Positions 6,997 to 48,984 of a DNA stretch of 64,000 bases are shown piece by piece. The DNA is from Pedobacter sp. SL55. GTDB lineage: Bacteria > Bacteroidota > Bacteroidia > Sphingobacteriales > Sphingobacteriaceae. A program made the position numbers and the translations under genes. Numbering within the stretch: position 1 is the stretch's first letter; every line of letters begins with the position of its first letter. The notes below the pieces were generated by a model. The model had not been told where the DNA came from, searched no databases, and worked only from the letters and a program-made list of their open reading frames with translations. The DNA is taken from NCBI RefSeq assembly GCF_026625705.1, contig NZ_CP113059.1, positions 2,790,001 through 2,854,000 of the forward strand. The letters are read 5' to 3'.

Positions 6997-8516
<1,520 letters not shown>

Positions 8517-8748
8517 CTGGAGTGGAACTGTCCACTCGCTGCGCCCAAATGATACTATATGATATAGTATAGGATGTAAATGATGATATATCTCTAAACA
8601 GGAAAAAAGAAACACCAAGAAGATGAAGCCATTCTAGCTTAGCTAGCGGCGAGATTGATTGTTAATTACGATTTACGAATTACGAGTTACGATTTAAGAA
8701 GGAAACGGAACAAATCTAAAATCGTCAATCTAGAATCTAAGATCAAAT

Positions 8749-8823
8749 AGTCCCGTAGCTCAGCCTGGTTAGAGCACTACACTGATAATGTAGGGGTCTC
8801 CAGTTCAAATCTGGACGGGACTA
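8749..8823 (+). tRNA. tRNA-Ile (GAT)
   Basis: A full cloverleaf is visible. The acceptor AGTCCCG pairs with CGGGACT, the D stem is GCTC/GAGC, the anticodon stem CTACA/TGTAG carries loop CTGATAA (anticodon GAT), and the T stem is TCCAG/CTGGA with TTCAAAT. CCA is not encoded. It lies in the 16S-23S spacer. Confidence 0.95.
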
Positions 8824-8834
8824 CGGATAGTTTT

Positions 8835-8914
<80 letters not shown>

Positions 8915-8992
8915 CTCGGTGAACAAAGATGAAAGAACAAAGATAAAAGACATGGTCTTTATTCCTTGCTCATTAATCCTTGCTCCACCTTG

Positions 8993-9014
8993 AGAAAGTT
9001 CTTTGACATATTGG
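8993..9014 (+). promoter_or_regulatory. boxA-like antitermination element before 23S
   Basis: GAAAGTTCTTTGACATATTG in the spacer resembles the boxA-type element commonly found shortly upstream of 23S genes in Bacteroidota. The assignment is by similarity only. Confidence 0.4.
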
Positions 9015-9146
9015 AAGAAGTTAAAAAAGAAGAGCAAACAACAATAGGCGACTGTTGTGTTTGTGCTCTCCCGATGCAAATCGGGGATGAGACATCATGA
9101 CAAGAGCAAAAAAGCATACCATGCGGCGCAAAAGGCGCATGAGTAG

Positions 9147-12018
<2,872 letters not shown>

Positions 12019-12098
12019 GCAGACGTTGTTTGCTCTTCGAAACTTAACTTCTTTCAATAATATGTCATTTATTATCACTGAATAATAACAAAGATATT

Positions 12099-12207
<109 letters not shown>

Positions 12208-12217
12208 AACTTAAACG

Positions 12218-47654: not shown

Positions 47655-47690
47655 ATTATATAATTGATTACCAAATAATTGGGAGGAAGC

Positions 47691-47729
47691 AAAAACGGGA
47701 AGTCACGTCTTTTGGAACGTGCCTTCCGT
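47691..47729 (-). terminator. Terminator at the downstream end of the tRNA/GIY-YIG array
   Basis: ACGGGAAGTCACGT and ACGTGCCTTCCGT pair with one or two mismatches. On the minus strand the stem is followed by a T-run (complement of 47691-47695). Confidence 0.6.
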
Positions 47730-47733
47730 TGAG

Positions 47734-47798
47734 TACTCAGAGCGGGAATCGAACCCGCACGCCTGTTGAGGGCATCCCGATTAAGATCGGGACGTGTC
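47734..47798 (-). repeat. tRNA-Leu 3'-half with hairpin in place of the anticodon arm, copy 1
   Basis: On the minus strand the variable arm, T arm (CGGGTTCGATTCCCG) and 3' acceptor TCTGAGTA of tRNA-Leu are intact. The anticodon arm is replaced by TCCCGAT-CTTA-ATCGGGA, a 7-bp stem with a 4-nt loop, and the 5' half is missing. It sits directly downstream of GIY-YIG copy 1. Confidence 0.75.
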
Positions 47799-48045
47799 AG
47801 CCATTGTTTGCAATCAGTGCTTCAATATATTTTCTGCTTTTTTTGGATTTGATTTCCATCTCACGTATGTTAGCTTCCGCTTTGGTCTGGAATTTTTCAG
47901 AGTAGGCTATTTTCCAAGGTCCCTTATTTCTGGTAGAAATCACGAAGCCATTATTATGCCTATCCAACCTAGCTGTCAGATCTTCGGTGTGTCCAATATA
48001 GAACCTTCCGCTCTTTTCAGATTGAAGTACATAGGTAAAAAACAT
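47797..48045 (-). CDS. GIY-YIG nuclease, tandem copy 1 (intact)
   Basis: 82 residues from the ATG at 48045 (MFFTYVLQSEKSG), the usual start of this family; an upstream ATG at 48069 adds eight. Single GIY-YIG domain: YVL, RFYIGHTEDLTARLDRHN with the catalytic Tyr and Arg, and a Glu in AEANIREMEIKSKK. The tail continues SRKYIEALIANNG. It is of the UPF0213/YhbQ-like small nuclease type. It is the only one of three tandem copies with an intact C-terminus, and its stop abuts a tRNA-Leu 3' half. Confidence 0.85.
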   Translation of the reverse strand: MFFTYVLQSEKSGRFYIGHTEDLTARLDRHNNGFVISTRNKGPWKIAYSEKFQTKAEANIREMEIKSKKSRKYIEALIANNG

Positions 48046-48097
48046 AGACCAAAAAATAAAAGCCATCATTTCTGATAGCTTTCCTTAGATTTTTATG

Positions 48098-48162
48098 TAC
48101 TCAGAGCGGGAATCGAACCCGCACGCCTGTTGAGGGCATCCCGATTAAGATCGGGACGTGTC
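48098..48162 (-). repeat. tRNA-Leu 3'-half with hairpin, copy 2
   Basis: Identical to copy 1 at 47734-47798, 364 bases away. Confidence 0.75.
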
Positions 48163-48177
48163 AGCCATTGTTTGCAA

Positions 48178-48408
48178 TCAGTGCTTCAATATATTTTCTG
48201 CTTTTTTTGATTTGATTTCCATCTCACGTATGTTAGCTTCAGCTTTGGTCTGGAATTTTTCAGAGTAGGCTATCTTCCAAGGTCCCTTATTTCTGGTAGA
48301 AATCACGAAGCCATTATTATGCCTATCCAACCTAGCTGTCAGATCTTCGGTGTGTCCAATATAGAACCTTCCGCTCTTTTCAGATTGAAGTACATAGGTA
48401 AAAAACAT
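48178..48408 (-). CDS. GIY-YIG nuclease, tandem copy 2 (altered C-terminus)
   Basis: Same protein as copy 1 up to EMEIKSKK, then AENILKH-stop. One G is missing compared with copy 1 (CTTTTTTTGA against CTTTTTTTGG on the plus strand), replacing the last 13 residues. The catalytic Tyr, Arg and Glu are all before the change. Two silent or conservative substitutions also separate it from copy 1. The start is taken at 48408 by analogy; 48432 is the alternative. Confidence 0.8.
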   Translation of the reverse strand: MFFTYVLQSEKSGRFYIGHTEDLTARLDRHNNGFVISTRNKGPWKIAYSEKFQTKAEANIREMEIKSKKAENILKH

Positions 48409-48460
48409 AGACCAAAAAATAAAAGCCATCATTTCTGATAGCTTTCCTTAGATTTTTATG

Positions 48461-48525
48461 TACTCAGAGCGGGAATCGAACCCGCACGCCTGTTGAGGGC
48501 ATCCCGATTAAGATCGGGACGTGTC
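48461..48525 (-). repeat. tRNA-Leu 3'-half with hairpin, copy 3
   Basis: Identical to copies 1 and 2, exactly 363 bases after copy 2. Confidence 0.75.
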
Positions 48526-48540
48526 AGCCATTGTTTGCAA

Positions 48541-48771
48541 TCAGTGCTTCAATATATTTTCTGCTTTTTTTGATTTGATTTCCATCTCACGTATGTTAGC
48601 TTCAGCTTTGGTCTGGAATTTTTCAGAGTAGGCTATCTTCCAAGGTCCCTTATTTCTGGTAGAAATCACGAAGCCATTATTATGCCTATCCAACCTAGCT
48701 GTCAGATCTTCGGTGTGTCCAATATAGAACCTTCCGCTCTTTTCAGATTGAAGTACATAGGTAAAAAACAT
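48541..48771 (-). CDS. GIY-YIG nuclease, tandem copy 3 (altered C-terminus)
   Basis: It appears identical in sequence to copy 2, including the missing G and the AENILKH ending, and differs from copy 1 at the same three sites. The 2/3 duplication is therefore the youngest event. Start 48771, alternative 48795. It lies immediately downstream (on the minus strand) of the complete tRNA-Leu at 48824-48908 and would be co-transcribed with it. Confidence 0.8.
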   Translation of the reverse strand: MFFTYVLQSEKSGRFYIGHTEDLTARLDRHNNGFVISTRNKGPWKIAYSEKFQTKAEANIREMEIKSKKAENILKH

Positions 48772-48823
48772 AGACCAAAAAATAAAAGCCATCATTTCTG
48801 ATAGCTTTCCTTAGATTTTTATG

Positions 48824-48908
48824 TACTCAGAGCGGGAATCGAACCCGCACGCCTGTTGAGGGCACAGGATTTTAAGTCCTGCGTGTCTACCAGTTCCACC
48901 ATCTGAGC
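48824..48908 (-). tRNA. tRNA-Leu (TAA), copy 1
   Basis: 85 nt. The acceptor GCTCAGA pairs with TCTGAGT, discriminator A; the anticodon stem CAGGA/TCCTG with loop CTTAAAA gives anticodon TAA; a long variable arm and T arm CGGGTTCGATTCCCG are present. CCA is not encoded. Its acceptor differs from copy 2 (GCTGAAG/CTTCAGT), with compensating changes on both sides. Its 3' half is the one repeated in the GIY-YIG array. Confidence 0.9.
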
Positions 48909-48935
48909 CTTTAAACATGGCGCTTGCTTATTGAC

Positions 48936-48984
48936 GGCATCCCGATTTTCATCGGGACGTGTCTACCAGTTCCACCACTTCAGC
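48936..48984 (-). pseudogene. tRNA-Leu 5'-half ending in a CCCGAT hairpin
   Basis: On the minus strand the acceptor 5' strand GCTGAAG and D arm (TGGTGGAACTGGTAGACACG) match tRNA-Leu copy 2. The anticodon arm is replaced by TCCCGATGAAAATCGGGA and the gene then ends. It is the mirror partner of the 3' halves in the array. Confidence 0.7.

Follow-up and report, generated by a model that had tools for sequence, protein, structure and literature searches.

A small GIY-YIG nuclease gene bordered by defective tRNA copies in Pedobacter: a likely homing-type element that enters and restores tRNA genes

We examined an array of small nuclease genes and tRNA-Leu fragments in a 64,000-nucleotide (nt) stretch of Pedobacter sp. 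SL55 (contig NZ_CP113059.1, positions 2,790,001 to 2,854,000, forward strand), the whole of which is called the window here. The original prediction for this DNA, made from its letters, had proposed a homing-like or tRNA-targeted mobile unit, and comparisons of filled and empty sites at three loci support this at the level of sequence. We consider it likely that the array derives from a free-standing mobile element of the homing type, which would invade the genes of one tRNA isoacceptor, restore the tRNA, and amplify by recombination. Such an element would consist of a small GIY-YIG gene, tRNA sequence of one isoacceptor (whole, or the part that rebuilds it, with a terminator), and bordering defective copies of the tRNA, in which one arm would be a G+C-rich hairpin.

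Because everything in the array is encoded on the minus strand, the array lies on the downstream side of the tRNA when read in the direction of transcription. In that direction, the order is tRNA-Gly, tRNA-Leu, tRNA-Gly, a tRNA-Leu 5' part with a hairpin, an intact tRNA-Leu(TAA), and then three times a GIY-YIG open reading frame (ORF) with a defective tRNA-Leu:

48925..48984, minus strand: 5' part of the invaded tRNA-Leu (48958-48984), its anticodon arm replaced by hairpin TCCCGATGAAAATCGGGA (48940-48957), followed by a decayed variable arm (from the sequence; same relic in genome G071, unbroken tRNA-Leu here in genome G140)
48823..48908, minus strand: intact tRNA-Leu(TAA), within the cassette (ARAGORN and Rfam)
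48777..48808, minus strand: terminator-like hairpin and T run behind the intact tRNA, at the end of which the ORF starts (from the sequence; same stretch in genomes G105 and G275)
48541..48795, minus strand: GIY-YIG ORF nearest the tRNA, 84 residues, C-terminus removed by a frameshift (ORF list and unit comparison)
48460..48535, minus strand: defective tRNA-Leu copy with D-arm remnant, hairpin (48502-48519), variable arm, T arm and acceptor 3' strand (from the sequence)
48178..48432, minus strand: second GIY-YIG ORF, 84 residues, frameshifted, identical to the ORF nearest the tRNA
48097..48172, minus strand: second defective tRNA-Leu copy, hairpin at 48139-48156
47797..48069, minus strand: third GIY-YIG ORF, intact, 90 residues as listed, conserved protein from 48045
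47733..47808, minus strand: last defective tRNA-Leu copy, hairpin at 47775-47792, its 3' end joining the resident flank
47690..47728, minus strand: terminator that originally belonged to the invaded tRNA-Leu, now behind the array (in G140 the matching stretch directly follows the unbroken tRNA-Leu)

The array agreed with the predicted three units, each holding a GIY-YIG gene and a 3' part of tRNA-Leu. These measure 364, 363 and 363 bp (47733-48096, 48097-48459 and 48460-48822); as claimed, the second is identical to the third, and both depart from the first in three places (one base missing at 47845, C/A at 47878, and T/C at 47911), and a whole tRNA-Leu adjoins them at 48823-48908. The predicted position of the hairpin had to be corrected. 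It was said to end the tRNA half as CCCGAT and instead stands at the 5' side of the half, in the position of the anticodon arm. Each defective copy lacks the 5' end, starts in a remnant of the D arm, has TCCCGATCTTAATCGGGA at the anticodon-arm position, and continues through the variable arm, T arm and acceptor strand, the anticodon arm being exchanged for a hairpin of the form TCCCGAT-loop-ATCGGGA. The additional tRNA-Leu 5' part with a hairpin, at ~48925-48984 on the other side of the intact tRNA, had been overlooked. The acceptor of the intact tRNA-Leu(TAA) is unlike that of the invaded tRNA-Leu.

Owing to the missing base, the two ORFs nearest the tRNA are frameshifted and lose the conserved C-terminus (84 versus 90 residues). 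One of the three nuclease genes in the array is intact, and relatives match the longer form. Apart from the three GIY-YIG ORFs, the array contains antisense or tRNA-overlapping frames of at most 93 residues. An assembly artefact is unlikely because the genome is a single contig, the units are not all alike, and genome G334, also on one contig, has eight copies of its own unit spaced at 397-399 bp; this was judged from assemblies, not reads.

An orthologous locus lacking the unit, the comparison that the original prediction had called for, is present in G140. This genome matches the window over 1.2 kb upstream at 71% identity, and has one unbroken tRNA-Leu of the invaded type. Directly behind this tRNA is the terminator stretch that in the window comes after the final defective tRNA-Leu (81% over ~150 nt, with its end near 47655). 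The cassette therefore sits inside a tRNA gene. Genome G275 has a single unit at the window's locus. Two further sites come from Flavobacterium. At tRNA-Ala, G472 and G492 carry the insertion and G514 does not; both filled genomes have gained an internal terminator, and their former one has been displaced. The displaced half in G472 has the T arm of G514, whereas that of the intact tRNA differs, and G492 has a 5' part with a hairpin to the left of its tRNA-Ala. At tRNA-Asn, locus L313 is empty and L314 filled. In all three comparisons, the terminator of the empty genome's tRNA stands behind the defective copy in the filled genome, and another terminator lies in between. A search for an empty site of locus L174 matched three of 28 genomes, namely L174 itself and two partial matches.

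We conclude from these comparisons that at three loci a tRNA gene was entered and an intact tRNA was present afterwards. That the carried end completes the tRNA while the native end is displaced is indicated by the terminators in all three comparisons, by the T arm in G472 but not G492, and by the acceptor in G071 but not the window. The predicted regeneration of the 3' half is borne out by the restored tRNA in these comparisons; a mirror-image form that restores the 5' half exists as well and had not been foreseen. Two loci look like remnants. In G105 (locus L223) the carried tRNA-Leu and its terminator are kept, with no nuclease gene and with apparent decayed halves, and at a tRNA-Asn locus (L315, G500) the element's terminator is present and the nuclease gene gone, as if the replacement tRNA had been domesticated.

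The same arrangement could have arisen without mobility if a tRNA gene was duplicated in tandem at its own locus, a nuclease gene lay between the copies by chance, and one copy then decayed. tRNA genes are often in tandem, as they are here (Gly-Leu-Gly), arrays grow by plain recombination, and the defective copy was always judged against the neighbouring tRNA. Duplication does not account, however, for a terminator behind the intact tRNA that is unlike the resident one, which follows the defective copy in the tRNA-Ala and tRNA-Asn comparisons, and at these two loci it is refuted by foreign sequence inside the filled member of the pair. It also leaves unexplained that left 5' parts and right 3' parts both occur, and that unrelated isoacceptors in many genera share the same plan and the same nuclease family. 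We regard this explanation as unlikely.

We surveyed the arrangement in two samples of loci. For the first, genome contigs were scanned with the nuclease alignment, which gave at least 502 relatives, of which the best 80 were used. A same-strand tRNA was present within 600 nt upstream in 58 of these 80 loci, and in 48 of the 58 the same tRNA was matched again behind the ORF. By record titles, the 48 loci come from nine named phyla, many of them as metagenome-assembled genomes (MAGs): Bacteroidota, Thermodesulfobacteriota, Nitrospirota, Myxococcota, Chloroflexota, Armatimonadota, Ignavibacteriota, Acidobacteriota, and, by weak matches only, Fidelibacterota. For the second sample, a profile search of 148 genomes from Bacteroidota gave matches in 87. 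Its 89 loci comprise 29 taken one per genome, with the window's own genome left out, and 60 picked among the matches listed, mostly without tandem neighbours and hits at contig edges. A tRNA lay within 400 nt at 81 of the 89, on the same strand in all those shown, and a CCCGA..TCGGG hairpin was present at 32; either a hairpin or a tRNA was found at 85. The tRNA stood upstream of the ORF (type A) at 64 loci, 48 of them with a defective copy behind the ORF; downstream of it (type B) at 15, of which 14 had a defective copy before the ORF; and between ORFs at two.

When both samples were pooled, a tRNA was present at 143/169 loci. The locus's own tRNA was matched across the ORF at 116 of the 143, compared to 22 for a random tRNA of another isotype and three when the own tRNA was set against a stretch further off; at E below 1e-5 the counts were 77, 2 and 1. 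A few isotype labels may be wrong because ARAGORN calls some hairpin copies tRNAs (locus L038, and probably the 'tRNA-Lys' of L131). The original prediction had named the lack of any consistent link between related genes and tRNA-Leu halves as the finding that would speak against it. We found the opposite for tRNA halves as such, although the halves belong to many isotypes and not to tRNA-Leu alone. These samples indicate that the architecture is general, across many isotypes and several phyla.

The exact hairpin junction was found in 3 of 301 genomes of the host family. A nuclease gene was present at 2 of 30 fetched Gly-Leu loci of Pedobacter (the window's and that of G290), and a nuclease gene or a piece of one at 6 of 30 fetched tRNA-Asn loci, not all of them orthologous and one with the gene ~750 nt away. 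Viral contigs gave two relatives in one scan with one peptide pattern, and phage cargo as the main vehicle is unsupported. Long tandem arrays with eight nuclease ORFs each were seen at loci L205 (G387) and L049 (G334); the array at L205 has no tRNA within 400 nt.

The borders of the defective copies follow a consistent plan. The 97 right-hand copies lack the 5' end, and 73 of them reach the 3' end within 2 nt; the 39 left-hand copies begin at the 5' end and have lost the 3' side. Among the 118 type A loci that have at least 100 nt of sequence upstream of the tRNA, a left-hand copy was found in 36, compared to 5 of 118 for a foreign tRNA in a control draw that scored a minus-strand tRNA as no match. 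The complete form therefore has both halves: a 5' part with a hairpin, the whole tRNA, a terminator, the nuclease gene, and a hairpin with the 3' part. We observed it in the window and in G071 (L029), where the left part and the first right part both carry the acceptor of the invaded tRNA, with the cassette between them. Type B is the mirror image, which restores the 5' half. At several type B loci the D or T loop holds the hairpin as an insert, with further tRNA sequence on its far side; at a type B element at tRNA-Ala(TGC) in a MAG of Patescibacteria (L128), long hairpins with GAGGATCCTC stand in the D loop of two left-hand copies.

We then asked how the nucleases are related. On a tree of 88 nucleases, built from 86 columns and with many forks unresolved, the isoacceptor changed 18 times, compared to 44.8 times when labels were shuffled (0/200 as low); one row, L026, was read in the wrong frame and has a long branch, and was left out of the larger tree. 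The nucleases at Asn, Val(TAC), Met and Arg(TCT) each occupy one side of a branch, with L035-L039 assigned to Val(TAC) by hand (no tRNA was called at L035, and that of L036 is ~1 kb away), whereas those at Leu, Asp, Gly and Ala do not. The Asn group covers three phyla; MAG assignments can be wrong. A larger tree with 148 labelled rows gave 61 changes of isoacceptor against 113.8 shuffled. For 78 rows of the second sample, isoacceptor (24 states) changed 40 times versus 61.9 shuffled, and host family (15 states) 40 versus 53.4; for 37 named rows of the first sample, the values were 10 versus 21.7 and 16 versus 26.7. Host phylum was also clustered (15 changes versus 22.6 shuffled, 60 rows), but less than isoacceptor. 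We conclude from these trees that nuclease lineages follow the isoacceptor more than the host family, with host kinship visible too. The original prediction had not anticipated this link.

The hairpin was found more often than expected by chance. Its pattern occurs four times in the window, compared to 0.00 in shuffles, and at 22 palindromic places in the genome, compared to none for the reversed pattern. Of these 22, 18 are elsewhere than at the tRNA-Leu locus, so the hairpin sequence also exists away from the array. The predicted folding energy in single-stranded DNA is -7.8 kcal/mol (z -3.2) for the new arm and -4.4 (z -1.6) for the normal anticodon arm. In the first sample, CCCGA..TCGGG was present between -40 and +150 around the ORF end at 43 of 80 loci and within 400 nt before the ORF at 35 of 80; when the pattern was reversed or permuted, 0 or 1 of 80 loci matched, and the remaining 329 kb of these loci contain eight occurrences. 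Other lineages use other stems, for example TCCGCC at tRNA-Met, TGGCGC at tRNA-Pro(CGG) and CTCCGA at tRNA-Lys. Similarity of the arm tracks protein identity beyond isotype (partial r 0.24, 0/2000 permutations, 66 loci). The hairpin is probably the nuclease's own site.

Hairpins or palindromic repeats were also seen in other settings. At loci L011, L012, L016, L018, L020 and L022 of the Pedobacter genome, repeats resembling repetitive extragenic palindromes (REP) are centred on TCCCGAT..ATCGGGA, which is flanked by sequences resembling AAACCCGAT and GCGGGACT. Small GIY-YIG genes from a different subfamily (L001, L002, L003, L007 and L008, same genome) lie between dispersed copies of palindromic repeats such as GTCATTGCGAGGCACGAAGCAATC and not beside tRNAs, and are possibly nuclease-repeat pairs of the same logic. 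In G290, where a duplication extends from the anticodon arm of tRNA-Leu to beyond a tRNA-Gly, a nuclease gene is flanked by hairpins (L225:1480-2600); the left one is an altered version of a stretch that is present unchanged (GTGCTGAGCAATCGTGCA) at the right duplication end, outside a tRNA. One may ask whether the nuclease serves palindromic repeats in general, like REP or Ssn systems, with tRNA genes as merely frequent neighbours, as the dispersal of the same hairpin sequence, the setting of the other GIY-YIG genes and the G290 hairpin outside a tRNA would suggest. This would leave unexplained the flanking copy of the same tRNA (116 versus 22 of 143), the lineages that keep to one isoacceptor, and the restoration of tRNA parts, and we consider it very unlikely.

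Another explanation holds that the hairpin copies are functional RNAs for which the unit is kept, either decoy tRNAs or RNAs that control the nuclease as in RNA-based toxin-antitoxin pairs. The stem is indeed kept with compensatory variety between lineages. In G299 (L038:1045-1465), moreover, both ARAGORN and Rfam accept three hairpin copies as tRNA-Val. Each has a CCCGA/TCGGG anticodon stem, a 7-nt loop and a full cloverleaf, and no nuclease gene separates them; they may be solo hairpin copies, or may even function as tRNAs. Most copies, however, lack one end and could not form a tRNA, the copy stands now before and now behind the ORF, and units come and go between close species, all of which makes a functional RNA highly improbable as the reason for the unit.

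A number of observations weigh against a mobile element that restores its target. The filled and empty genomes are different species, the G140 assembly has an N-run next to the site (before tRNA-Gly), and the T arm of G492 does not separate the carried from the resident half. The acceptor of the window's last displaced half is that of the carried and not of the invaded tRNA, so that a later exchange within the array would be needed. A defective copy was lacking, at the threshold used, in 27 of the 143 tRNA-linked loci, and no tRNA was near at 8 of 89 loci, or 26 of 169 in all. The hairpin is often off the exact border, since tRNA sequence continues beyond it at type B loci and one hairpin of G290 is outside any tRNA, which weakens the idea that the hairpin marks the border exactly. 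Of the 18 other hairpin places in the genome, the 13 displayed are terminator-like or within REP-like repeats. Within isotypes, the match between hairpin and nuclease is borderline (106/2000 permutations reach it), and the correspondence is therefore moderate as evidence. Finally, if the nuclease were to cut at an intact tRNA, that site would remain cuttable after insertion.

Both forms of the nuclease ORF match PF01541 (E 2.2e-14 and 3.5e-14; 53.9 and 53.3 bits against a curated cut-off of 22.6). The first eight codons of the 90-residue ORF (MMAFIFWS) lie inside the tRNA terminator, and the conserved protein begins at M9. Tyr, Gly, Arg and Glu are active-site residues of GIY-YIG nucleases with catalytic roles; in an alignment of 29 sequences Y13, Y24, G26, R34 and E70 are invariant, which indicates conservation of the active site. 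The predicted structure has a mean predicted local distance difference test (pLDDT) score of 88.2, and the nearest sequences with solved structures are two UPF0213 proteins, followed by the structure-specific SLX1. The ratio of nonsynonymous to synonymous substitution rates (omega) was 0.08-0.42 in six pairs of nucleases, and a seventh pair was saturated. A protein search gave 28 relatives, many on very short contigs; five of the six with an organism name are from Pedobacter. Not every GIY-YIG gene is linked to a tRNA: none of the seven other PF01541 loci of the Pedobacter genome, two of them in long ORFs, has a tRNA in the 3.2 kb fetched.

We envisage that the homing-type element enters a tRNA gene of the same isoacceptor as the one it carries. 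Its tRNA segments would guide repair by homology, and the resident part would be displaced behind the nuclease gene, so that the host would end with a working tRNA that is wholly or partly element sequence. Tandem growth would then result from recombination between the repeated 3' parts (three units here, eight in G334), and later decay would leave the replacement tRNA behind. The most likely trigger would be recognition and breakage by the nuclease of its own hairpin, with the freed ends, which have tRNA homology, invading another tRNA gene; alternatively, the first step may be a cut of the empty tRNA gene, as in classical homing. In this scheme, we infer the role of the nuclease as driver, its recognition of the hairpin, homologous recombination, and transfer between species.

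Some features recall known systems. Integrative elements with a tyrosine recombinase enter tRNA genes, restore the 3' end, and leave a displaced fragment. Unlike in those elements, the breaks here are in the tRNA body, a hairpin is added, and a mirror-image form exists; no recombinase gene fits the units of 363-399 bp, the ORF there being GIY-YIG, and none was found among the ORFs of the array. Group I introns of tRNA-Leu(UAA) with homing endonucleases likewise combine an endonuclease with an insertion in the anticodon region of the same tRNA, but here the tRNA is restored in DNA. We reject such an intron because no intron RNA family was found in Rfam scans, either of the window and 12 loci with gathering thresholds or of the surroundings of the array with E up to 1. 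Ssn proteins are site-specific single-strand GIY-YIG nucleases, small and with a repeated cognate site that is possibly palindromic; we liken them by description, and know of no link between them and tRNAs.

The closest precedents, by analogy, appear to be mobile ORFs (mORFs) of fungal mitochondria and the phage nuclease SegB. mORFs (in Glomus atp6, atp9, cox2 and nad3, and in Allomyces atp6) carry a replacement C-terminus of the host gene (PMC3630166). They are also free-standing endonuclease ORFs in a conserved gene (GIY-YIG in atp9), and their foreign 3' end completes the gene, while the native end is displaced and matches that of an empty relative. They differ from the present case in that their targets are mitochondrial protein genes, and the accessible part of that report describes neither a counterfeit copy with a hairpin nor a mirror-image form, and no association of lineages with isoacceptors (PMC3630166). 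SegB, a phage GIY-YIG homing endonuclease, cuts within tRNA genes and drives tandem amplification of a tRNA-nuclease segment by homologous recombination (PMC13096335). As compared by description, the position of the gene beside tRNA genes (here at 81/89 loci) and the tandem amplification are alike, whereas SegB acts in phage genomes on larger segments with several tRNAs, and no defective hairpin tRNA copy is described in the accessible part of its report (PMC13096335).

Outside the array, the window has a complete rRNA operon (16S, tRNA-Ile, tRNA-Ala, 23S and 5S) at 6997-12209.

No description of this architecture was found in a literature search of titles and abstracts, with most subscription papers and bioRxiv outside its coverage. 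As far as that literature goes, what is new is that the target is a bacterial tRNA gene, that a counterfeit tRNA bears a hairpin specific to its lineage, that a mirror-image form exists, and that the arrangement extends over phyla. On balance, we lean towards an undescribed class of very small bacterial elements (~360-400 bp per unit), in which a single-domain GIY-YIG nuclease would recognise a hairpin in a counterfeit tRNA, enter genes of the same isoacceptor, and spare the host by means of the replacement it carries. Each lineage would be tied to its isoacceptor and its own hairpin, and the class, spread over several phyla, would be an unrecognised source of replaced and tandemly duplicated tRNA genes.

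tRNA genes are usually treated as fixed, essential landmarks. If the above is true, many of them carry a nuclease element or were rewritten by one, with a bearing on the evolution, copy number and annotation of tRNA genes; for annotation, this concerns false tRNA calls on hairpin copies and GIY-YIG ORFs whose ends are tRNA sequence. With a nuclease of ~82 residues, the elements would be among the smallest units that move on their own, and would bring into bacteria the gene-end-swapping strategy of the fungal mitochondrial mORFs.

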